This document shows, piece by piece, positions 23,762 to 34,954 of a stretch of DNA of 58,578 nt. The stretch is from Nostoc sp. MG11 (lineage in GTDB: Bacteria; Cyanobacteriota; Cyanobacteriia; Cyanobacteriales; Nostocaceae). Where the stretch lies: NCBI RefSeq assembly GCF_014904695.1, contig NZ_JACXXN010000035.1, positions 1 through 58,578 on the forward strand. The letters are read 5' to 3'. Position 1 is the first letter of the stretch. Each line of letters opens with the position of its first letter. The notes beneath the pieces were generated by a model, which was given only the letters and a program-made list of their open reading frames with translations, did no database searches and had not been told where the DNA came from. The position numbers were made by a program, and so were the translations under genes.

Positions 23762-26266
23762 TTATTTCTCCTTAGCTTCTTGGACTAAGTTAGCAATCGT
23801 TGCAATTAACAGGGCTGGGTCTATTGGCTTTGAAATATGCGCTTGAAAACCTGCTGAAATTGCTTGCTGCTCGTTTCCTTCTCCAGCATAAGCTGTAAGA
23901 GCGATCGCTGGAATTTGCCCTCCTTGTTCTGGAGGAAGTGACCTGACTTGTCTAAGCAGCATATAACCATCCATTTCTGGCATCCCGATATCACTTACCA
24001 GTAAATCTGATTTTGACTGTGCTAAGGCTGCTAATACCTCTGCTGCTGATGACACAGCCCTGACTGTTGCTCCACACTCTTCAAGGATGAAGGTAACTAA
24101 CTCTAAAGAATCAGGATCATCATCCACAGCTAAAATTTGAAGACTATCAAAAGCTGAAGTTTCGGCAGTCGTTGCATCACTTTTTTCATTACTTACCAGT
24201 GAATCGGTAACTATCATAGGTAAATTTACAATGAAGGTTGCTCCTTGACCTTCTCCTAAACTTTCTGCAAAAACAGTTCCACCATGCATTTCTACTAGAT
24301 AACGGACAATTGCTAGTCCCAATCCCAAGCCGCCAAATTTTCTAGTTGTTGCGCTATCGGCTTGACGGAAGGTGTCAAATACATAGGGGAGAAAATCTCG
24401 GCTGATTCCTTTGCCTGTGTCTGTAATCCGAATTTGAGCCTGGGAACCAACTGGCTCTAAATAAACCTCAACTTGTCCGCCTTCTGGAGTAAACTTAATC
24501 GCGTTGGAGAGCAAATTCCAGACGACTTGCTGCAAACGCCCCGAATCCCCAAATACTTGACTAACAGTAGAATCGAGATTGGAGTGAATTTGAATTGATT
24601 TGACCTCAGCTGACAACCGCACTGTTTCCATCGCAGCTCTAACAATGCTTGCTAAATCAACAGGGCAAACATTCAGGCTTAGCTTGCCTCGCAAGATGCG
24701 GGAAATATCTAGTAGATCTTCAATGAGTTTAGTTTGTAACTGAGCATTACGTTCAATGGTTTCAAGAGCAAAAGCAGTCTTTTTTTGATCAAGCTTGTTA
24801 CTACGTAGAAGTTTTGCCCAACCCAAGATGGGATTTAATGGAGTTCTAATTTCGTGAGATAGAACAGCGAGAAACTCATCTTTAATTCGATTCGCGTCTA
24901 TTGCTTGCTGGTAAAGGCGAGCGTTATCAATTGTGATAGCTGCCCGTTGAGCCAGTGCTTTAGCCATTGCTAAATTGGTTTTACTGTAGCGACGGTTCGG
25001 TTGGTTTGTCACAAAAGTAATCGTACCTAACTTGCGTAGGTGTATCTCGCCGTAGGCATCGCGAGCTACTAGCGGCACAATCATATAGGATTGAATGTTG
25101 ATCTGACGCATCAGCCGCAAGGGTTCTGCATCCTGTCTCATTGTCAAGAAAAACGCATCTGACGCATCACTGACTAACTGCGGCTTACCTGTTCTAAGCA
25201 CATTTCGCACGCCAAAATCAGCATCAATTGAATTGGAATAAAGCCGTCTTAGTACAAGCGCTAGTGCTTCTATTTCAGGGGTTGCGGCAGCAATAATTGG
25301 TTCCTCAAATACTGTAAGATTGCTTTCGACAACATCAATAAAACAGCAATCAGCTAAAGTGGGAACGACTAAGTTGGCTAACTTTGTCAGAGTTGTGTGG
25401 TAATCGAGCGAAGATGCTAATAGTCTGCTAGCTTCAGACAGTAAACTATAATTTTGCTTTTCAATTTCAGCTTCCATCCTGGCAGCTTGTTCACGGATCA
25501 GTAGTTGCTCTCGTTCTAACTCTGCGTGTTTACGATCGCTAATATCCTCTATCAAACCGTCAATGATGCCGTTGCCATTCATTTGTGTGAAGGTTTGACT
25601 GATACGCACCCAAATTAAACTACCATCTGCTCGTCGCAGTTGCATCTCGCGATCGCGCACCTCACCAATTTGTTGCAATTGGCTGATCAGATGAGGATGG
25701 TCTTCTGTTTGAAAATAAGGCTCTCTGAACTGACTCGTCTGCTCTTGGGGCAGTGTTCCCAATCCAATAAGACGCAGGAATGCTGGGTTGCACTCTAGTA
25801 AAGCACCATCCAAACTTGCCCGATAAATCCCAACATTTAACCGATTAAGCAAAGTTTGGAAACGAGCTTCTAAATTCGCTGCTTTCTGGCGAGCTTCAAC
25901 TCGTTCTAAGGCAGAGCGAACTGCGGCACTCAAGCGCACTTGGTGCTGGGGTGACTTAACAACATAGTCATCCAATCCAGACTTCATTGCCTCTACTGCA
26001 ATTTCCTGAGTACCACTGTTAGTGAACATAATCACTGGACAATCAGGATAACGCGCTTTAATTGCCCGTAGCACTTCTAAACCATTACTCCAACGCAATT
26101 GATAATCGGTGACAACTAAGTTAAACTGCCCCCTTTCTAAGGCCTGAGCTAGTTCTTCTGCCATAGCAACTTGTTCTACTTGGAGGTCAATAAACTCTCG
26201 TTCCAGTTGTCGAATTGCTAAAAGGCGATCGTTTGGGTTGTCATCAATTAGAAGAATGCGTAACAT
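23762..26266 (-). CDS. Hybrid sensor histidine kinase/response regulator (REC-PAS-GAF-HisKA-HATPase-REC)
   Basis: An 834-residue soluble hybrid kinase without membrane helices. In order: a receiver domain (LLIDDNPND, phospho-Asp in VVTDYQL, about 1-120), PAS (about 135-250), GAF (about 290-450), HisKA with SHEIRTPLNPILGWAKLL (about 470-535), HATPase (NLLSNAIKFT, DTGKGIS, GGLGLGLAIV) and a second receiver (LAVDDDPDSLE, phospho-Asp in VSDIGMPEMDGY, about 705-830). Such kinases are expanded in filamentous cyanobacteria, and the input signal cannot be inferred. It is monocistronic, with a 413-nt repeat-containing spacer upstream (26267-26679). Confidence 0.9.
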   Translation of the reverse strand: MLRILLIDDNPNDRLLAIRQLEREFIDLQVEQVAMAEELAQALERGQFNLVVTDYQLRWSNGLEVLRAIKARYPDCPVIMFTNSGTQEIAVEAMKSGLDDYVVKSPQHQVRLSAAVRSALERVEARQKAANLEARFQTLLNRLNVGIYRASLDGALLECNPAFLRLIGLGTLPQEQTSQFREPYFQTEDHPHLISQLQQIGEVRDREMQLRRADGSLIWVRISQTFTQMNGNGIIDGLIEDISDRKHAELEREQLLIREQAARMEAEIEKQNYSLLSEASRLLASSLDYHTTLTKLANLVVPTLADCCFIDVVESNLTVFEEPIIAAATPEIEALALVLRRLYSNSIDADFGVRNVLRTGKPQLVSDASDAFFLTMRQDAEPLRLMRQINIQSYMIVPLVARDAYGEIHLRKLGTITFVTNQPNRRYSKTNLAMAKALAQRAAITIDNARLYQQAIDANRIKDEFLAVLSHEIRTPLNPILGWAKLLRSNKLDQKKTAFALETIERNAQLQTKLIEDLLDISRILRGKLSLNVCPVDLASIVRAAMETVRLSAEVKSIQIHSNLDSTVSQVFGDSGRLQQVVWNLLSNAIKFTPEGGQVEVYLEPVGSQAQIRITDTGKGISRDFLPYVFDTFRQADSATTRKFGGLGLGLAIVRYLVEMHGGTVFAESLGEGQGATFIVNLPMIVTDSLVSNEKSDATTAETSAFDSLQILAVDDDPDSLELVTFILEECGATVRAVSSAAEVLAALAQSKSDLLVSDIGMPEMDGYMLLRQVRSLPPEQGGQIPAIALTAYAGEGNEQQAISAGFQAHISKPIDPALLIATIANLVQEAKEK

Positions 26267-26575: not shown

Positions 26576-26589
26576 GTAACTTATGATAC
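26576..26589 (+). promoter_or_regulatory. NtcA-type binding site upstream of the guanidine operon
   Basis: GTA-acttatga-TAC is a perfect match to the NtcA consensus GTAN8TAC. A TATTTATAAA stretch begins 22 nt after the site, the distance expected for a class II NtcA-activated -10 element. NtcA activates nitrogen-assimilation genes under nitrogen limitation. The riboswitch starts about 90 nt downstream, so a transcript starting near 26620 would carry it. Confidence 0.65.
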
Positions 26590-26679
26590 TTTTTATCTCA
26601 ATACCTTTTGATATTTATAAACTTGAGTATAAAAAACTAAGTACCAAAAAAACTACTAGCAATTGGGTAAAAATTAATA

Positions 26680-26784
26680 GCTTCTAGGGTTCCGATTTAA
26701 CATTTTTGTAGTTAAATGACTGGTCCGAGAGAAGCACCCAGTTTAGAAAAAACTGGTCACACGGCGGGAAAAAAGCCCGGGAGG
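26680..26784 (+). ncRNA. Guanidine-I (ykkC subtype 1) riboswitch aptamer
   Basis: Conserved blocks appear in the right order and spacing: CTAGGGTTCCG (26684-26694), an ATTTAAC/GTTAAAT hairpin, ACTGGTCCGAGAG, a CCAGTTT/AACTGG hairpin, then ACACGGCGGGA-AAAAAGCCCGGGAGG. These match the ykkC class that binds guanidinium. The downstream genes are a guanidine hydrolase, its activators and an importer, which agrees with the guanidine-sensing subtype rather than the ppGpp or PRPP variants. Binding is expected to switch expression on. Confidence 0.92.
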
Positions 26785-26830
26785 TACATAGCAGAATATT
26801 ATCTGTTATGGCTTACCCGGGCTATAGTTT
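26774..26830 (+). terminator. Riboswitch expression platform, terminator-like hairpin
   Basis: AGCCCGGG at 26774-26781, which is the 3' edge of the aptamer, is perfectly complementary to CCCGGGCT at 26816-26823. Between them ATAGCAGA (26788-26795) pairs with TCTGTTAT (26803-26810). The hairpin is followed by ATAGTTTT. The same bases cannot be in the aptamer and in this hairpin, so guanidine binding should prevent termination. The T-run is short, so the platform call is an inference. Confidence 0.7.
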
Positions 26831-26867
26831 TGCCTGGCAAATCTTAAAAATTTCAACTTCCCGAAAC

Positions 26868-28061
26868 ATGACTGAACAATCTTTTTCTGATTCCAATTCT
26901 CCTTTCCAACCACCTTCTACGCAAGCGGGTCGAGCGCTGGAAAAAGAAGCACATTTACCGCTAACAGGCTGGCAGCAGGAAGTTTCCAAAGGGCTAGAAT
27001 ATGGGTTAGAAGCAGCAGAAAGTATACGCGATCGCTCGATTCCCACATTTTCTCGCGGGGAGCTTCCCCACTTTGCCGGGATTAACACTTTCTTAAAAGC
27101 ACCCTATTTAGAAGATGTGCGGAAAGTTGGTGAATACGACGTTGCGATCGTTGGTGTACCACATGATTCTGGAACTACTTATCGACCCGGAACGCGTTTT
27201 GGCCCCCAAGGAATCCGCCGAATCTCAGCATTATATACCCCTTATAACTTTGAACTAGGTGTGGACTTGCGCGAGCAGATTACTCTATGCGATGTCGGCG
27301 ATATTTTTACCATTCCAGCTAACAATGAAAAGTCCTTTGATCAGATTTCTAAAGGTATTGCACATATCTTTAGTTCTGGTGCATTCCCTATAATTATGGG
27401 AGGTGATCATTCAATTGGCTTTCCCACAGTCCGTGGTATTTGCCGTCATTTAGGCGATAAGAAAGTGGGTATTATTCACTTTGATCGCCATGTGGATACT
27501 CAAGAAACAGACCTAGATGAAAGAATGCATACTTGTCCCTGGTTTCATGCCACAAATATCAAAAATGCACCAGCAAAAAACTTAGTTCAATTAGGAATTG
27601 GTGGTTGGCAAGTACCACGTCAAGGTGTAAAAGTTTGTCGAGAAAGAGCTACGAATATTTTAACAGTGACAGACATCACTGAAATGGGGCTAGATGCAGC
27701 CGTCAACTTTGCTTTAGAAAGAGCATTAGACGGTACAGATTGCGTTTATGTCAGTTTCGATATTGACTGCATTGATGCCGGATTTGTCCCTGGAACTGGC
27801 TGGCCGGAACCCGGTGGATTATTACCACGTGAGGCTCTGTATTTGTTAGGCAAAATTGTTCAAAACGCACCTGTTTGTGGACTGGAAATTGTAGAAGTTT
27901 CACCGCCTTACGACGTTAGTGATATGACATCATTAATGGCGGCGCGAGTAATTTGTGATACGATGGCGCATTTAGTTGTCTCAGGTCAATTACCACGCAA
28001 AGAAAAACCTGCATATATTCATCCCGCAGCAGAACCAGAGTTAGTTGAGGAATGGAGGTAA
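26868..28061 (+). CDS. gdmH: Nickel-dependent guanidine hydrolase (agmatinase/ureohydrolase family)
   Basis: A 397-residue ureohydrolase that should split guanidine into urea and ammonia. Metal ligands are all visible: GGDHS (His181), HFDRHVDT (Asp206, His208, Asp210) and SFDIDCID (Asp298, Asp300). An N-terminal extension of about 90 residues precedes the core, and HFDRHVDTQETDLDERMHT is the wording of Synechocystis Sll1077, the enzyme shown to be a guanidine hydrolase, rather than of agmatinase. The guanidine riboswitch upstream and the HypA/HypB-like genes downstream repeat the Synechocystis locus. The ATG at 26868 is preferred; an in-frame ATG at 26808 lies inside the riboswitch hairpin. 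Confidence 0.9.
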   Translation: MTEQSFSDSNSPFQPPSTQAGRALEKEAHLPLTGWQQEVSKGLEYGLEAAESIRDRSIPTFSRGELPHFAGINTFLKAPYLEDVRKVGEYDVAIVGVPHDSGTTYRPGTRFGPQGIRRISALYTPYNFELGVDLREQITLCDVGDIFTIPANNEKSFDQISKGIAHIFSSGAFPIIMGGDHSIGFPTVRGICRHLGDKKVGIIHFDRHVDTQETDLDERMHTCPWFHATNIKNAPAKNLVQLGIGGWQVPRQGVKVCRERATNILTVTDITEMGLDAAVNFALERALDGTDCVYVSFDIDCIDAGFVPGTGWPEPGGLLPREALYLLGKIVQNAPVCGLEIVEVSPPYDVSDMTSLMAARVICDTMAHLVVSGQLPRKEKPAYIHPAAEPELVEEWR

Positions 28062-28064
28062 ATT

Positions 28065-28427
28065 TTGCACGAAGCTGACATGACAAAGGCACTAATTTTA
28101 ACAGTAAAAGATTGGTGGGAATCCCAACCTGAGCGACCAGAAATTTCTCAAGTTCACTTAATTGTTGGGAAGTTCACTTGTGTTGAACCTGTAAGCTTGC
28201 AATTTGCTTTTGAAGTCCAAACGCGTAACACCTTTTTAGAAAAAGCAAAACTGATAATTCAGGAAACACCACTAATTGCCTTTTGTCATCGTTGTCAACA
28301 AGAATATTCACCACAAATTGGTTTACAGTACGCTTGTCCTGAGTGTAATTCTCCAATGGACGATATTCGCTCAGGTAGAGAGTTGAAAATTGACAGGATT
28401 GAATACGCTTATGCATCAAACGTTTGA
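28065..28427 (+). CDS. ghaA: HypA-like nickel chaperone for guanidine hydrolase
   Basis: A 120-residue HypA-family protein. It begins MHEADM, with the essential nickel-binding His2, and has a zinc site of two CxxC pairs (Cys74/Cys77 and Cys91/Cys94). The start is the TTG at 28065, required to give the MHE N-terminus and served by GGAGG at 28054-28058 within the end of gdmH. Only 3 nt separate the genes, so they are translationally linked. HypA normally serves hydrogenase or urease; in this context it should help load nickel into GdmH, as GhaA does in Synechocystis. Confidence 0.88.
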
Positions 28428-29136
28428 CGCGGTATTAGGAATTAACTTGCTCCATGCCAATCAACAAGGCGCTGACCACAACCGAGCGCATTTTGATAAA
28501 TGGGGAATTACCTGTTTCAACATCATGAGTAGTCCTGGTGCTGGTAAAACGGCACTACTAGAACGCACCCTTGCGGCTCTAACTAATGAGTTAAAAATTG
28601 CTGTCATTGAAGGCGATATGACAACCAATTTAGATGCAGAACGCCTGCGGAAATATAATGTTCCTGTGATTGCAATTAATACAGGTCGTTCCTGTCATTT
28701 AGATTCCAAAATGGTAGCAGGCGGGATTCACCAACTGGAACAGGAATACAATCCTTCAGACTTTGATTTAGTGCTAGTAGAGAATGTTGGTAATTTAGTT
28801 TGTCCTGCTGAATTTGAAGTAGGAGAACATGCCAAAGTTGCTTTGCTAAGTATTACTGAAGGCGAAGATAAACCACTGAAATACCCGATTATGTTTCAAG
28901 AAGCAGATTGTCTGCTGATTACGAAAATAGATTTGGCTCCCTATCTAGATGTTGATATTAGTCGTATTGAGGCAAACGTCCGTCAGATGAATCCTGATGT
29001 TGAGATTATTCCTGTTTCTACTAAAGCAGATGAGGGATTAGAAGTTTGGTTTAATTGGGTGCGATCGCAAGTTTTGAAGGCACACCAGAATTCTTCATCT
29101 ACAGCAGCAATCCCCAATGTTGTGCATATTCATTAG
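28411..29136 (+). CDS. ghaB: HypB-like nickel-insertion GTPase for guanidine hydrolase
   Basis: A 241-residue SIMIBI-class GTPase. Walker A is [12 protein letters not shown] (about 40-51), followed by [14 protein letters not shown], the [17 protein letters not shown] metal/switch segment and TKIDLAPYL for guanine recognition. The N-terminus ([14 protein letters not shown]) lacks the CxxCGC nickel motif and His-rich stretch of many hydrogenase HypB proteins. The ATG at 28411 overlaps ghaA by 17 nt; a TTG at 28390 would lengthen it by 7. No other hydrogenase-maturation gene is nearby, which fits a role in activating GdmH. Confidence 0.88.
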
Positions 29137-29493
29137 CAATTAGTAGCATTTCCCTACTTCACAAATAGGTCATTGTCTCCATAAACCAATAGTATTTGGA
29201 CACGCTATTTGTTAAACATCCAACCTATTATGAAAGCGGTTAGCTAGGATATTCCCATTTCCATAACATTCCTAAATAATTCGTGAAATGTTCTCTTCTC
29301 TTTGTTGGCGTCCTTGGCGGTATGCCTTCGGCACGCTACGCGAACATTACAAAGAAAAATAATTTTCACAACTCAAACACGATTAATATATCTTCTACCT
29401 GCAAAAGTCAATTTTACTTAACTTTATAACAACGTAGACGCAAATTCTCAACTTAAGTCCCTTACAACGAAGCGTAAGTCCGAGTTAAATATA
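29137..29493. other. Spacer inside the guanidine cluster with a repeat island
   Basis: 357 nt without an ORF. A GC-rich palindromic segment (about 29308-29345, TATGCCTTCGGCACGCTACG) interrupts AT-rich DNA. CTTAC/GTAAG near 29461-29478 can form a small hairpin shortly before the next start. No second ykkC aptamer is present. The importer genes either share the upstream riboswitch transcript or have their own promoter here. Confidence 0.5.
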
Positions 29494-30531
29494 ATGAATA
29501 TTCGCAAATTATCATCTCTATTCACAGTCTTTTTACTCAGTCTTGTTATCGCAATCAGTTGTACTCCCAACCAGCAAAATTCTACGCAGAGCAATTCTAC
29601 TACCTCAGTTAACACTGCACCAGTTCAGGTTGGTTTTAGTGCTTGGCCAGGTTGGTTTCCGTGGCAAGTTTCTCAAGAGCAAAAGTTATTTGAAGCAAAC
29701 AAAGTTAATGTAGATTTGAAGTGGTTTGATGGCTATTTAGATTCTATTAATGCCCTGCGAGCAGGCCAACTTAATGCCAACACCCAAACCTTGAATGATA
29801 CGATTAGCTCAGTTGCAGCAGGTTCAGATCAAGTAATTGTTTTAGTCAACGATAATTCAACTGGAAACGACAAAATTGTTGTCCGAGAAGGAATCAATCG
29901 CATTGCCGACCTTAAAGGTAAAAAAGTTGCTGCTGAAGAAGGAACAGTTGACCATTTTTTGTTATTGCTGGGTTTGAAAAAAGCAGGTTTAACTCAAGCT
30001 GATATTCAGTTTCAACCACTAGAAACCGGTGCAGCAGCAGCCGCTTTTGTGGCTGGTCAAGTTGATGCAGTCGGAGTTTTTGCACCTTTTACAACAAAAG
30101 CTTTATCACGTTCTGGTAGCAAAGAATTATTTAGTTCTAAAGACTTTCCTGGTGCGATTCCCGACCATTTAGTTGTCAACCGCAGACTTATTAACGAACG
30201 TCCGCAAGATGTACAAGCTTTAGTGAATACTTGGTTTGCTACTTTAGATTTCATCAAAGCCAATCCAAACAAAGCTTACGAAATTATGGCGAAACGCGCT
30301 GGCGTCTCAGTTTCAGAATATAAGGCATACGACGCAGGTACTAAAATCTTCTCGCTAGAAGACAATTTGCAAGCTTTTAGTCCCGGTAAGGACATGAAAT
30401 CCTTGAGTTACGCTGCTGGGGAGATTAGTAAATTTCTTGTTGAAGCTGGTTTGACAAAACAAGCACCTAATCTTAACCAAATCCTTGACGATCGCTTTGT
30501 CAAAGCCTACGCCGCGAAACAGAAATCATGA
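29494..30531 (+). CDS. ABC transporter substrate-binding lipoprotein, nitrate/taurine (SsuA) type, probably guanidine-specific
   Basis: A 345-residue binding protein. Its signal peptide ends in a lipobox (LVIAISC, Cys23), so it is tethered to the membrane. The fold is the SsuA/NrtA/ThiY type: FSAWPGWFPWQVSQEQKLF, KWFDGYLDSINALRAGQLNA, and DLKGKKVAAEEGTVDHFLL. Family members bind nitrate, sulfonates, pyrimidine precursors and similar small molecules. The Synechocystis guanidine hydrolase locus has an equivalent importer directly downstream, so guanidine is the likely ligand here; this is by context. The stop overlaps the next start by 4 nt (ATGA). Confidence 0.82.
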   Translation: MNIRKLSSLFTVFLLSLVIAISCTPNQQNSTQSNSTTSVNTAPVQVGFSAWPGWFPWQVSQEQKLFEANKVNVDLKWFDGYLDSINALRAGQLNANTQTLNDTISSVAAGSDQVIVLVNDNSTGNDKIVVREGINRIADLKGKKVAAEEGTVDHFLLLLGLKKAGLTQADIQFQPLETGAAAAAFVAGQVDAVGVFAPFTTKALSRSGSKELFSSKDFPGAIPDHLVVNRRLINERPQDVQALVNTWFATLDFIKANPNKAYEIMAKRAGVSVSEYKAYDAGTKIFSLEDNLQAFSPGKDMKSLSYAAGEISKFLVEAGLTKQAPNLNQILDDRFVKAYAAKQKS

Positions 30532-31376
30532 ACCAATACGCTGAAGATTTACAGGGAATAAACTCTAAGCGTCCTCATAAAATATTACCACAAACCGTTT
30601 TTTGGCGGATTGCTGAAGATATCCCTAAAAACTTGGCTTGGACTTTAATGTTCTTGTCAATTACTGTCCCTATACTTGTCTGGTGGATTGTTTCTAATAC
30701 TGAATTAATTCCGCCTTTATTTCTGCCTACTCTCAGTCAAGTTTGGAGTGCATTTCAAAGACTTTTAGCAAGTGGCGATTTACAAAAAGATATTGCTTTT
30801 AGCTTGTTTCGCGTCGTGGCTGGTTTTTCTTTGGCGGCAATGGTTTCCATCCCTTTAGGTACTTTAATGGGGACTTTTGCGAGCTTCCGAGCATTGCTAG
30901 AACCAATTATTGGTATTGTCCGCTATATGCCAGCCCCGGCTTTTATTCCTTTACTAATTCTATATCTTGGGCTGGGAGAAACTCCAAAAATAATGCTGAT
31001 TTTTATCGGCACTCTGTTTTTTAACACCTTAATGGTGATGGATGCAGTCAAATTTGTTCCTAAACATTTATTAGAAACTACTTATACTTTAGGAGGTCAA
31101 AGAAAACAAGTTTTACTGCAAGTTATTTTCCCATTCATTCTGCCTAATATTATTGATGCTTGTCGGGTTAACATGGCAGCATCTTGGAACTTAGTGATTG
31201 TTTCGGAATTAGTAGCGGCGACAGAAGGTTTAGGTCGGAGGATTAGTGTTGCTCAAAGATATCTTAAAACTGATGAAATTTTTGCTGGATTGATTGTTAT
31301 TGGCTTGATTGGTTTAGTAATTGACCTTTTGTTTCGGTTGTTACTGCGCGTTTCTTGTAAGTGGGCTAAAGATTAG
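30528..31376 (+). CDS. ABC transporter permease, nitrate/taurine type, probably guanidine importer
   Basis: A 282-residue permease of the SsuC/NrtB family with six membrane helices and the EAA loop (about 183-200, TYTLGGQRKQVLLQVIFPF). Typical LPTLSQVWSAFQRL and MPAPAFIPLLILYLGLGE segments are present. The ATG overlaps the stop of the binding-protein gene (ATGA), so the two are translationally coupled. It should form a homodimeric channel for the substrate delivered by the lipoprotein upstream. Confidence 0.85.
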   Translation: MNQYAEDLQGINSKRPHKILPQTVFWRIAEDIPKNLAWTLMFLSITVPILVWWIVSNTELIPPLFLPTLSQVWSAFQRLLASGDLQKDIAFSLFRVVAGFSLAAMVSIPLGTLMGTFASFRALLEPIIGIVRYMPAPAFIPLLILYLGLGETPKIMLIFIGTLFFNTLMVMDAVKFVPKHLLETTYTLGGQRKQVLLQVIFPFILPNIIDACRVNMAASWNLVIVSELVAATEGLGRRISVAQRYLKTDEIFAGLIVIGLIGLVIDLLFRLLLRVSCKWAKD

Positions 31377-31408
31377 GCAATTCGTAATTCGTAATTTAAA
31401 GACGCTTT

Positions 31409-32206
31409 ATGCATTTAGAAGTTAATCAACTCCACAAACAATTTAAAACTAGACGCGGTTTGTTGACTGCACTTAAAAACATCAATTTGCACATAGAAGA
31501 GGGTGAGTTTGTCTGTGCAGTAGGAGAAAGTGGTTCTGGTAAGTCAACATTGCTGCGGTTAATTGCAGGGTTAGAGACTCCAACAGCAGGGGAGATTTTG
31601 GTTGACGGAATGCGCGTAACAGGGCCAGGGTGCGATCGCGGTATGGTATTTCAAAGCTACACTCTCTATCCCTGGATGAGTGTGATGGAAAACGTCGAAT
31701 TTGGCTTAAAGCTGCAAGGTGTGTCTAAACTAAAGCGACGACAACAAGCCGCTTATTATTTAGAAGTAGTTGGGTTGTCGGGATTTGCTAAAGCGCTACC
31801 ACAGGAACTTTCTGGTGGGATGAAGCAACGAGTAGCGATCGCTCGTGCTTTAGCATCAAGACCCAAAATTTTGCTCATGGATGAACCCTTTGGTGCGTTG
31901 GATGTGCAGACGAAAGAAGTCATGCAGCAATTTCTACTAGAAATTTGGCGTAGCACAAACACTACAATTTTTATGATTACTCACGATGTTGAGGAAGCAA
32001 TTTTTCTATCTCAACGCATCTACGTGTTAAGCGCCCGACCAGGCACAATTAAGCAAGAATTGCAAATACAATTGCCAAGCAAATCTGATCCTCAAGTCAA
32101 GCGTTATCCCATATTTCAGAAATACAAGGATGAAGTAATGAGTCTATTACATAATGATGAGGAGCAGTTAAATAACACTACAGAGCCACTACCTTTAATA
32201 AACTAA
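31409..32206 (+). CDS. ABC transporter ATP-binding protein, nitrate/taurine type, probably guanidine importer
   Basis: A 265-residue ATPase of the SsuB/NrtD/TauB group. Walker A GESGSGKST (about 40-48), Q-loop VFQSYTLYPWMSV, signature LSGGMKQRVAIARAL (about 134), Walker B ILLMDEPFGALD and H-loop ITHDVEEAI. The C-terminal ending is short, without a NrtC-type regulatory domain. It follows the permease by 32 nt and ends 1 nt before the convergent epimerase gene, closing the guanidine cluster. Confidence 0.87.
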   Translation: MHLEVNQLHKQFKTRRGLLTALKNINLHIEEGEFVCAVGESGSGKSTLLRLIAGLETPTAGEILVDGMRVTGPGCDRGMVFQSYTLYPWMSVMENVEFGLKLQGVSKLKRRQQAAYYLEVVGLSGFAKALPQELSGGMKQRVAIARALASRPKILLMDEPFGALDVQTKEVMQQFLLEIWRSTNTTIFMITHDVEEAIFLSQRIYVLSARPGTIKQELQIQLPSKSDPQVKRYPIFQKYKDEVMSLLHNDEEQLNNTTEPLPLIN

Positions 32207-32207
32207 A

Positions 32208-33164
32208 CTATTTAGCACTTTTAACACCGCTAATTTTCAAAACATCACTCATAGTTGCACAGTAATTTGGTAAATTAAAACTGCTAGGATTAATTGCTTT
32301 TTCATAAGTGAAATGGCGATCATTCATGCAAAATCTATCCCAAGCAGCCATCTGAATGCGGAACACAGCAATAATCAAATTAGCTAACCCTAAAGATAGG
32401 GGAACGCGAAAGTAAATTTTTTTGCCCAGATAAGCACAAACTTCTTTCACTGCTTGATTAGCAGTTAACGGCGCTTGACCTAAAACAAACTGACGTGGCT
32501 CATTTGTATGGGGAGGATGAGCAATCAAATATTGCACGACAGTGGCAACGTCTCGCCCGTGAATAAAGTGGAAGCTGCCGTCTACCTTCAAAAAGCGAAT
32601 TAAATTAATATATTTCGTAACTTCTGGAATGCCAGATGTAGCATGAGAATAAGGCTTTTTGGCATCGCCGCCTAAAACTAAAGTAGGAAAAACAGTGGTA
32701 ATTTTGGGTGCGATCGCTAACTTCGATTTTTCATGCAAGCATTGATATTTGGAACGGATATAATCTGTACCAATTTCCCCTGCTTCTTTTAATGGTTGAT
32801 TGTAGCAATCCAAAACACTAGCTGTAGAAAAATAAATCACTTGTTCGCAGCGGTCTGGATTGAGCAGGTTCAGCAACTCTAAAGTTTTAGTTACATTAAT
32901 ATCAAATGTCTCATCACCACCCCAAGCTGTGGCTGTAAGGACTGCTATATCAATTGTTTGTAGCAAATCAGTAAAATGGCTAATTTTCTGCATATCGCCT
33001 TGCAAGACGGTGATACCTGGACGTGCTTGAATATCAACTTGCAGCTTATTGGGATTTCTAACTAATAGAAATAACTCATGATTTGTATTTTTAATTAAAG
33101 CTTCTGAGATATAGTGACCAATACAGCCACTTGCCCCGGTGACTAAAATCCGTTTCTGGCTCAT
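32208..33164 (-). CDS. NAD(P)-dependent epimerase/dehydratase family protein
   Basis: A 318-residue atypical or extended short-chain dehydrogenase. The N-terminal ILVTGASGCIGHYI supplies the nucleotide-binding Gly-rich loop, and STASVLDCYN plus TDYIRSKYQCLHE carry the Ser and the YxxxK-like pair (Tyr-Ile-Arg-Ser-Lys) of the active site. HFIHGRDVATVVQYLI is also typical. The substrate is unknown; cyanobacterial homologues are annotated only by fold. It converges on the importer ATPase gene. Confidence 0.8.
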   Translation of the reverse strand: MSQKRILVTGASGCIGHYISEALIKNTNHELFLLVRNPNKLQVDIQARPGITVLQGDMQKISHFTDLLQTIDIAVLTATAWGGDETFDINVTKTLELLNLLNPDRCEQVIYFSTASVLDCYNQPLKEAGEIGTDYIRSKYQCLHEKSKLAIAPKITTVFPTLVLGGDAKKPYSHATSGIPEVTKYINLIRFLKVDGSFHFIHGRDVATVVQYLIAHPPHTNEPRQFVLGQAPLTANQAVKEVCAYLGKKIYFRVPLSLGLANLIIAVFRIQMAAWDRFCMNDRHFTYEKAINPSSFNLPNYCATMSDVLKISGVKSAK

Positions 33165-33759: not shown

Positions 33760-33785
33760 AAAAACTTGACTGTAAATTATTCAGA

Positions 33786-33892
33786 AAAGCAGAGGAGCAG
33801 GGGAGGCAGGGGAGGCAGGGGAAGCAGGGGAAGAAAATAACTCTTGACCTTTGACCCTTGACTCTTGACCCTTGACCCTTGACCCCTGCCTC
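33786..33892. repeat. Two short tandem repeats between hemE and hicB
   Basis: Two adjacent arrays fill the spacer. 33792-33834 repeats a roughly 10-nt GGGGAGGCAG unit about four times. 33841-33886 repeats a heptamer (TTGACCC/TTGACTC) about six times. Short tandemly repeated heptamers of this kind are characteristic of heterocystous cyanobacterial spacers. A related TTGACCC run precedes potD at 16722-16752. Confidence 0.85.
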
Positions 33893-34954
33893 TTACCTTC
33901 CAACTCCTGCCGCATCAAGTTGCTTTGCCGTTTCAAAGAAGAAAGCGACATTTTCCTCTGGAGTCTCTGGGAGTACACCGTGACCAAGATTGAGAATGTG
34001 ACCCCAATTGCCAGCTTTGCGAACGGTATCAAGGATGCGATCGCGGATAAACTGTTTGGAACCAAATAACACTCCTGGGTCAAGATTTCCTTGCACTTTC
34101 ACGTGCTTGCCTAATCTGGCTCTTGCTTCTGCCATATCCACCGCCCAATCTACGGTGACGACATCAGCGCCAGATATTGCCATTCTTTCCAACACACCCG
34201 CGCTACCGCTAACCAACAGAATCAAAGGTGTATCGGGATGGGTTTGCTTGACTTGTTGGAAAACTCTTTGCTGATAAGGGAGAGCAAAGGTGTCATAATC
34301 TTGAGGACTCAGTTGCCCTGCCCAAGAATCAAACATCTGCACAACTTGAGCACCACAGTCAATTTGATAGCGCATGTAAACAGCGATCGCATCTGCTAAT
34401 TTAGCTAACAATTGATGCAGTGTTGTTGGATCTGAGAACGCCATGTTTTTGATGACGGAGTAGGTTTTAGAACCTTTTCCTTCCACCGCATAAGCCGCTA
34501 ACGTCCACGGCGCACCCACAAAGCCTAACACAGTTGATTTGTTGCCCACTTCTTGGCGCAACGCCTGCAAAATTGTTTTGATAAATGGTAGATCTGCTTC
34601 TGGTTCTAAGGGACGCAGGCGATCAATTTGTTCTTGAGTGCGGATGGGCGAGAAAATAACTGGCCCTTTACCTTCCGCAATGTCCATTTCAATGCCCAAA
34701 CCGGGCAAGGGTGTAACAATATCGGAAAATAAAATTACTCCGTCTGGCTGGAAAGCTCTCCAAGGTTGCAAAGAAACTTCAATCGCTACTTCGGGGATTT
34801 CCGAGCGATCGCGAAATGAAGGATACTTCTCCCGTAAGTCTCGATAAGCTTTCATATATCGTCCCGCTTGTCGCATCATCCATACGGGGGGACGATCTAC
34901 TACTTCACCACGAGCAGCCCGTAAGAGATGAGGAGTCGTTGAGGAAACACCCAT
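33893..34954 (-). CDS. hemE: Uroporphyrinogen decarboxylase
   Basis: A 353-residue TIM-barrel enzyme that decarboxylates uroporphyrinogen III to coproporphyrinogen III in heme and chlorophyll synthesis. Diagnostic features are the N-terminal [13 protein letters not shown] (substrate Arg residues), [12 protein letters not shown] with the catalytic Asp, [24 protein letters not shown], and [12 protein letters not shown] near the C-terminus with the conserved His. The length is normal. It reads toward the tandem repeats and the HicBA pair. Confidence 0.95.

Follow-up and report, generated by a model that had tools for sequence, protein, structure and literature searches.

The stretch analysed here, referred to as the window, comprises the 58,578 nucleotides of contig NZ_JACXXN010000035.1 from Nostoc sp. 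MG11 and carries, in positions 26576 to 32206, a locus of six genes on the plus strand that is very probably a GdmH-type guanidine assimilation operon, orthologous to sll1077-1082 of Synechocystis sp. PCC 6803, in a Nostoc/Komarekiella-like cyanobacterium with a genome of 8.4 Mb. Judged by GdmH, the nearest named relatives of the host are Nostoc sp. B(2019) and two Komarekiella, with 99-100% identity. A first-pass annotation of this DNA had described a cluster running in a single direction and consisting of an aptamer, a GdmH-type hydrolase, HypA- and HypB-like genes and a three-gene ATP-binding cassette (ABC) importer, a description confirmed by the RF00442 and protein-family matches reported below, all on the plus strand. 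It had also likened the gene order to that of sll1077-sll1082, and according to the published description, as given in excerpts of PMC8390497 and PMC10094980, the two loci are indeed alike in gene content, order and leading Guanidine-I aptamer, our own sequence comparison being that of the enzyme; the window host differs in being a large-genome Nostoc relative. The Synechocystis operon and its riboswitch are also described in an excerpt of PMC12186494. An identical order of the six genes is found in 46 of the 80 relatives' loci compared, which were the top-ranking ones among at least 571. The operon itself is already characterised in Synechocystis, and what the present analysis adds is the layout of the promoter and the scars left at the locus in related genomes.

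The gdmH gene (26868..28061, plus strand) encodes a protein of 397 residues which, by homology, would be a nickel-dependent guanidine hydrolase. The protein matches the ureohydrolase family PF00491 with 261 bits and carries GGDHS, DxHxD and SFDxDxxD in the alignment, which we take to be the metal-ligand motifs of the enzyme. The closest solved relatives are the Synechocystis guanidine hydrolase (7esr/7oi1, 793.6 bits; E 4.4e-238 for 7esr) and the guanidinase of Nitrospira inopinata (9fek, 590 bits, E 2.8e-176), the best non-guanidinase ureohydrolase in the PDB list being proclavaminate amidinohydrolase, with 165.7 bits. Judged by these scores, the window enzyme is in the GdmH clade of ureohydrolases. 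Excerpts of PMC11410670 state that Thr97 and Trp305 of the Synechocystis enzyme decide guanidine specificity, and that Thr105, His222, Trp313 and Glu344 of the N. inopinata guanidinase are possibly important; their equivalents by alignment are T124, W332, H241 and E363 (numbering of the 417-residue open reading frame), and we infer that the residue numbers of the chain and of the paper differ by two, which fits both proteins. The motifs around the four residues are present in all 80 relatives, and the longer motif DRHVDTQ in 74 of them. A second ureohydrolase encoded in the genome (on C227) shares 26% identity and bears serine in place of T97 and threonine in place of W305. The GdmH-type assignment made in the first-pass annotation thus holds upon alignment with Sll1077 versus other ureohydrolases, both in the scores (793.6 against 165.7 bits) and in the presence of the T97, W305, H222 and E344 equivalents. 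The listed reading frame opens at 26808, inside the attenuator hairpin described below; since the closest relatives do not retain the reading frame ahead of 26868, this start was rejected in favour of the conserved ATG at 26868.

Ahead of gdmH, the Guanidine-I riboswitch model RF00442 matches positions 26673..26785 of the plus strand over its full length (1-107), scoring 83.8 bits where the gathering threshold is 63 (E 1.7e-13), and this is its sole match in the whole genome. An Infernal search with this model had been named beforehand as a test capable of refuting the assignment, and the match it returned lies near the 26680-26784 that had been proposed in the first-pass annotation. In the predicted fold, the 3' strand of aptamer helix P3, AGCCCGGG, is fully complementary to the downstream segment CCCGGGCT, and the resulting hairpin (26774..26823, plus strand; AGCCCGGG.../...CCCGGGCT) is present in the minimum-energy fold of 26770-26835, at -32.2 kcal/mol, with ATAGTTTT directly after it at 26824-26831. 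The same arrangement was evaluated in 69 aptamers, namely that of the window and those of 66 further loci, two loci having two (L072 was left out). The P3 strand is paired downstream in the predicted fold of 68 of the 69, the only one lacking the competing hairpin being the second aptamer of L077, and shuffled downstream sequences attain P3 pairing with an energy as low or lower in 0.7% of cases on average; these shuffles, like those of the promoter below, preserve base composition only, and the relatives are not independent of each other. A run of TTT follows within 12 nt of the hairpin in 44 of the 68, and TTTT in 35. For the Guanidine-I class, transcription is described as permitted only with guanidine (PMC11410670, in excerpt). 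Because the hairpin takes up the 3' strand of P3, it is most likely an attenuator, and guanidine would most likely turn the operon on, as suggested by the modelled fold and by analogy with the class.

A few loci depart from this arrangement. At L008 (upstream of 8001) and L099 (upstream of 4460) the aptamer is lost, the full six-gene operon is retained and a piece of the attenuator's downstream half remains; at L008 the place of the aptamer is occupied by a 19-base inverted repeat (AGGTATTGAGCCGAGATGC...GCATCTCGGCTCAATACCT). Weak RF00442 matches of 40-45 bits, below the cut-off, are found at L096 1436-1539, L097 1472-1575 and L101 6328-6431; the gene that follows has a product with a similar N-terminus in all three and encodes an EamA-family transporter in L097. 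Perhaps these belong to a further ykkC-type riboswitch that binds some other ligand. An aptamer of 63.8 bits at L094 1696-1799 has no recognisable guanidine gene behind it and may be a relic.

In the first-pass annotation the cluster begins at 26576. An NtcA-type box, on which that annotation is silent, opens at exactly this base. This box, GTAACTTATGATAC (GTA-N8-TAC; 26576..26589, plus strand), is followed by an extended -10-like element, TGATATTTA (26609..26617, plus strand), in which TATTTA is preceded by TGA and stands 22 nt past the box, placing the predicted transcription start near 26624. Canonical NtcA-activated (class II) promoters have the box near -41.5 and a -10 box TAN3T, with examples in which 22 nt lie between them (excerpts of PMC3898017); the TATTTA of the window does not conform to TAN3T. 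We have analysed the upstream regions of 69 aptamers from 67 sources, the window included, L024 being left out as only 144 nt are available upstream. A strict GTA-N8-TAC box within 250 nt upstream was found in 53 of the 69 regions, versus 5.1 expected by shuffling, and other box spacings (N4-N7 and N9-N12) gave 1 to 10 of 69 in the same regions; the background frequency of the strict box in random 250-nt stretches from the same sources is 484 in 13,574. Over the 54 box sites, TA occurs exactly 22 nt past the box in 42 and TGnTA at this spacing in 33, TGnTA at any of nine spacings amounting to 38 against 3.5 expected. Because the strict box precedes 53 of the 69 aptamers, transcription probably requires both nitrogen hunger and guanidine, a two-input gate read from sequence. 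In the literature on NtcA with guanidine, riboswitch and related terms, covered partly in excerpt, we found no report of NtcA control, and Itzenhauser et al. 2025 may hold one.

The three importer genes, all on the plus strand, encode a substrate-binding protein (29494..30531) of the SsuA family (TIGR01728, 221.8 bits, cut-off 163.5) with a lipobox-like AISC recognised by eye, a permease (30528..31376; PF00528, 83.2 bits) and an ATPase (31409..32206; PF00005, 120.2 bits). These families are named after sulphonates, taurine, nitrate and urea, and the assignment of guanidine as cargo is drawn from co-occurrence and gene context, so one might suppose that the importer carries sulphonate, urea or nitrate and stands beside gdmH by chance. 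The distribution of the genes makes this unlikely. Among 192 Nostocaceae genomes, mostly drafts, in which the importer was tracked by its binding protein alone, an aptamer above cut-off is found in 24 (27 with weak ones), GdmH in 20 (E at most 1e-100), the binding protein in 23 (E at most 1e-60), of which 22 have at least 62% identity and one (G089, 34%) was dropped, and a carboxylase in 7 (E at most 1e-200). The latter belongs to the guanidine carboxylase pathway (TIGR02712 carboxylase, the UAAP1/2 or DUF1989 pair and allophanate hydrolase), which shares the riboswitch class with the window operon and differs from it in being ATP-dependent and in using other enzymes. All 22 importer genomes have one of the two enzymes, 18 of them GdmH and 4 (G078, G110, G172 and G187) a carboxylase set with a guanidine riboswitch, none having neither (Fisher p 1.9e-24, or 3.4e-25 when G029 is omitted, with no correction for kinship). 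Since both enzymes act on guanidine and the importer is retained alongside one or the other, we infer that guanidine is its cargo. Moreover, in G110 a guanidine riboswitch precedes the importer with only enzyme-gene remnants between, and at L077 (6356) and L040 (1093) a second Guanidine-I-like aptamer, recognised by motif, stands directly before the importer, besides that before gdmH.

Carboxylase without the binding protein is seen in G106, G185 and G029. Because G029 (L106) has a carboxylase-type gene and allophanate hydrolase with no UAAP1/2-type gene nearby, guanidine riboswitch or urease match, its carboxylase-type gene is probably a true urea amidolyase. At the same threshold of E 1e-200, no TIGR02712-type carboxylase was detected in the window genome. 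Mutual exclusion of GdmH and carboxylase was considered and rejected, as their co-occurrence in 0 of 192 genomes is at chance level (0.6 expected, Fisher p 1). Four genomes (G007, G008, G048 and G060) encode a second binding protein elsewhere, 69-75% identical to that of the importer. A search for guanidine exporters gave two SMR-family matches in the window genome, one of them strong; the strong one, presumably EmrE/Qac-like by its motif, has no riboswitch, the only aptamer of the genome being that of the window.

Further support for guanidine as cargo comes from genomes in which the promoter and the importer are retained and gdmH-hypAB has been excised. In G110 (L092), an intact aptamer of 80.1 bits is followed by a gdmH remnant (residues 1-43) that passes directly into a remnant of the end of hypB (residues 210-245), and then by a complete importer, 87.5-91% identical to that of the window, and the carboxylase set is found with its own aptamer on another contig. 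In G187 (L102), the match to the window DNA breaks off at 26686 and is taken up again at 29487, so that gdmH, hypAB and all but the first aptamer bases are gone and the promoter region now stands before the importer; no aptamer was found at this importer locus, and the carboxylase of this genome has one elsewhere. The importers of these two carboxylase genomes are of the window type, with binding proteins 89-90% identical to the window's. In G018 (L103), the match to the window extends to 26691 and is followed by a piece of gdmH (27003-27182) and then by the importer. The same contig carries, at a distance of about 152 kb, an intact gdmH-hypA-hypB set (L100 3030-5262; G018:C1 about 3667000) with neither aptamer nor NtcA box upstream and flanked by genes with condensation, AMP-binding and PP-binding domains of nonribosomal peptide synthetases. 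The NtcA-type box is retained at all three scar loci. The importer of G078 and G172 is a more distant one (62-63% identity in the binding protein) and is divergent from the carboxylase set, importer and set each having an aptamer of their own. We consider it reasonably likely that cyanobacterial guanidine operons are gates requiring both NtcA and guanidine across diverse lineages, and that the Nostocaceae importer is an independent guanidine module which has repeatedly outlived gdmH-hypAB. A CRISPR array with CRISPR-DR5 repeats was also noted in G187 (L102 20-1601), about 2.7 kb away from where the importer genes end.

A number of observations weigh against the interpretation put forward here. 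On the side of the promoter, strict TAN3T is not enriched (23 of 54 sites versus 18.9 expected, 17 of its matches being at spacing 22), and 16 of the 69 upstream regions have no strict NtcA box. As for the attenuator, a simple terminator scan did not list the window hairpin, whose stem is bulged, and the T run behind it consists of four only. The gdmH gene has no recognisable aptamer in 13 of the 80 loci, nor do two of the 20 Nostocaceae GdmH genomes (G018 and G061) have one, which indicates that riboswitch control is not obligatory. A six-gene run is not visible in 34 of the 80 loci; 14 of these end within 6 kb of gdmH, and the remaining 20 have at least 5.9 kb behind it. Two of the 20 GdmH genomes (G091 and G109) lack the binding protein, and no solved guanidine-bound binding protein was found among the structural matches of the window's own, the four matches being binders of sulphonate, nitrate and taurine with E values no better than 9.3e-15.

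Synechocystis without sll1077 declines when fed guanidine (PMC8390497, in excerpt), which would suit a cluster serving chiefly in guanidine detoxification, with the gain of nitrogen being secondary. We hold this to be quite improbable, as an ATP-driven importer is ill-suited to detoxification, the promoter has a conserved NtcA-type box and the Synechocystis operon is repressed by ammonium (PMC10094980, in excerpt). That the enzyme is instead an agmatinase or another guanidino-acid ureohydrolase, and the operon one for arginine or polyamine breakdown, is hardly credible and was set aside on residues and scores: the generic agmatinase label, foreseen in the first-pass annotation, arises from a TIGR01230 score of 175.7 bits that exceeds the cut-off of 174.3 by 1.4 bits, against 590 and 793.6 bits to guanidinase structures and at most 165.7 to other ureohydrolases, the specificity residues, including the Thr97/Trp305-type pair, are GdmH-like, a guanidine aptamer stands ahead of the gene and the genome encodes another ureohydrolase of the family without those residues.

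The two genes following gdmH on the plus strand are nickel-chaperone genes of the hypA and hypB types. The hypA-type gene (ghaA, 28065..28427) scores 120 bits with TIGR00100 against a cut-off of 88.1; its TTG start at 28065 lies six bases past GGAGG and yields the N-terminus M-H-E, and the product has two CxxC. The gene is present in 74 of the 80 loci, in all of which x-H-E and two CxxC are found, the start codon being ATG in 60, TTG in 9 and GTG in 5. The hypB-type nickel-insertion GTPase (ghaB, 28411..29136) scores 308.5 bits with TIGR00073 (cut-off 121.2); its listed reading frame opens at TTG 28390, and the start is probably ATG 28411 instead, which would overlap hypA by 17 nt. A second HypA/HypB pair, on C172, is only 30% (HypA) and 46% (HypB) identical to that of the window, so that the latter looks like a dedicated set; the gene with an AIRS domain adjoining the C172 pair reads to us as HypE, and that pair would serve a hydrogenase. 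Two contigs of 6113 bases (L012 and L104) carry gdmH and the aptamer, and lack hypA, hypB and the importer over the 4.4 kb that follow.

Compared with the other known systems, the N. inopinata guanidinase (9fek) is alike in enzyme clade and in the four key residues; it differs in having its own APC permease and, according to excerpts of PMC11410670, in that no nickel chaperones were found in the genome. The six-gene cassette _40486-_40491 of Limnospira indica PCC 8005 is syntenic with sll1077-1082 and has a ykkC-yxkD leader, and differs in belonging to another lineage and in that the enzyme is called an agmatinase there (PMC8400943, in excerpt).

These elements suggest the following course of events. 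Under nitrogen hunger, NtcA with 2-oxoglutarate would bind at 26576 and transcription would start near 26624, as the promoter layout and its conservation imply. Without guanidine, the nascent leader would fold the hairpin 26774-26823 and transcription would halt ahead of gdmH; with guanidine, the aptamer would retain its P3 strand and transcription would continue, the aptamer and hairpin being computed and the direction of the response being that of the class. Control by the riboswitch would have to reach the importer across a gap of 357 nt behind hypB (29137-29493), in which no second aptamer was found at the RF00442 gathering score. The binding protein, permease and ATPase would import guanidine, and GhaA and GhaB would insert Ni2+ into GdmH, which would convert guanidine to urea and ammonium, as reported for Synechocystis. 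The remaining two nitrogens would be freed by a urease, whose alpha gene is present on another contig. The proposal in the first-pass annotation that the cluster senses, imports and hydrolyses guanidine is accordingly supported, whereas its qualification as a complete unit is overstated, two of the three nitrogens leaving as urea and needing the urease encoded elsewhere. Urease is present in all 20 GdmH genomes, yet it does not discriminate for the guanidine pathway, because 181 of the 192 Nostocaceae genomes encode it anyway.

The locus is flanked on both sides by genes on the minus strand, a kinase-like gene (reading frame 23762-26266) and an epimerase-type gene (32208-33164, PF01370). Further along the window, a repetitive SRVKGQ / SPASPA reading frame at 33781-34083, probably a short repeat array, overlaps the end of a uroporphyrinogen decarboxylase gene (PF01208).

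Overall, the results extend a characterised nitrogen-scavenging system to a Nostoc relative and correct the agmatinase label that its enzyme would receive. Independent evidence on the cargo of the importer, beyond what family names reveal, comes from the loss or replacement of the enzyme in nature. If the NtcA reading is true, guanidine use in these cyanobacteria would be tied to the nitrogen status of the cell as well as to the inducer, which would also bear on the use of the riboswitch as a cheap switch for cyanobacterial engineering.

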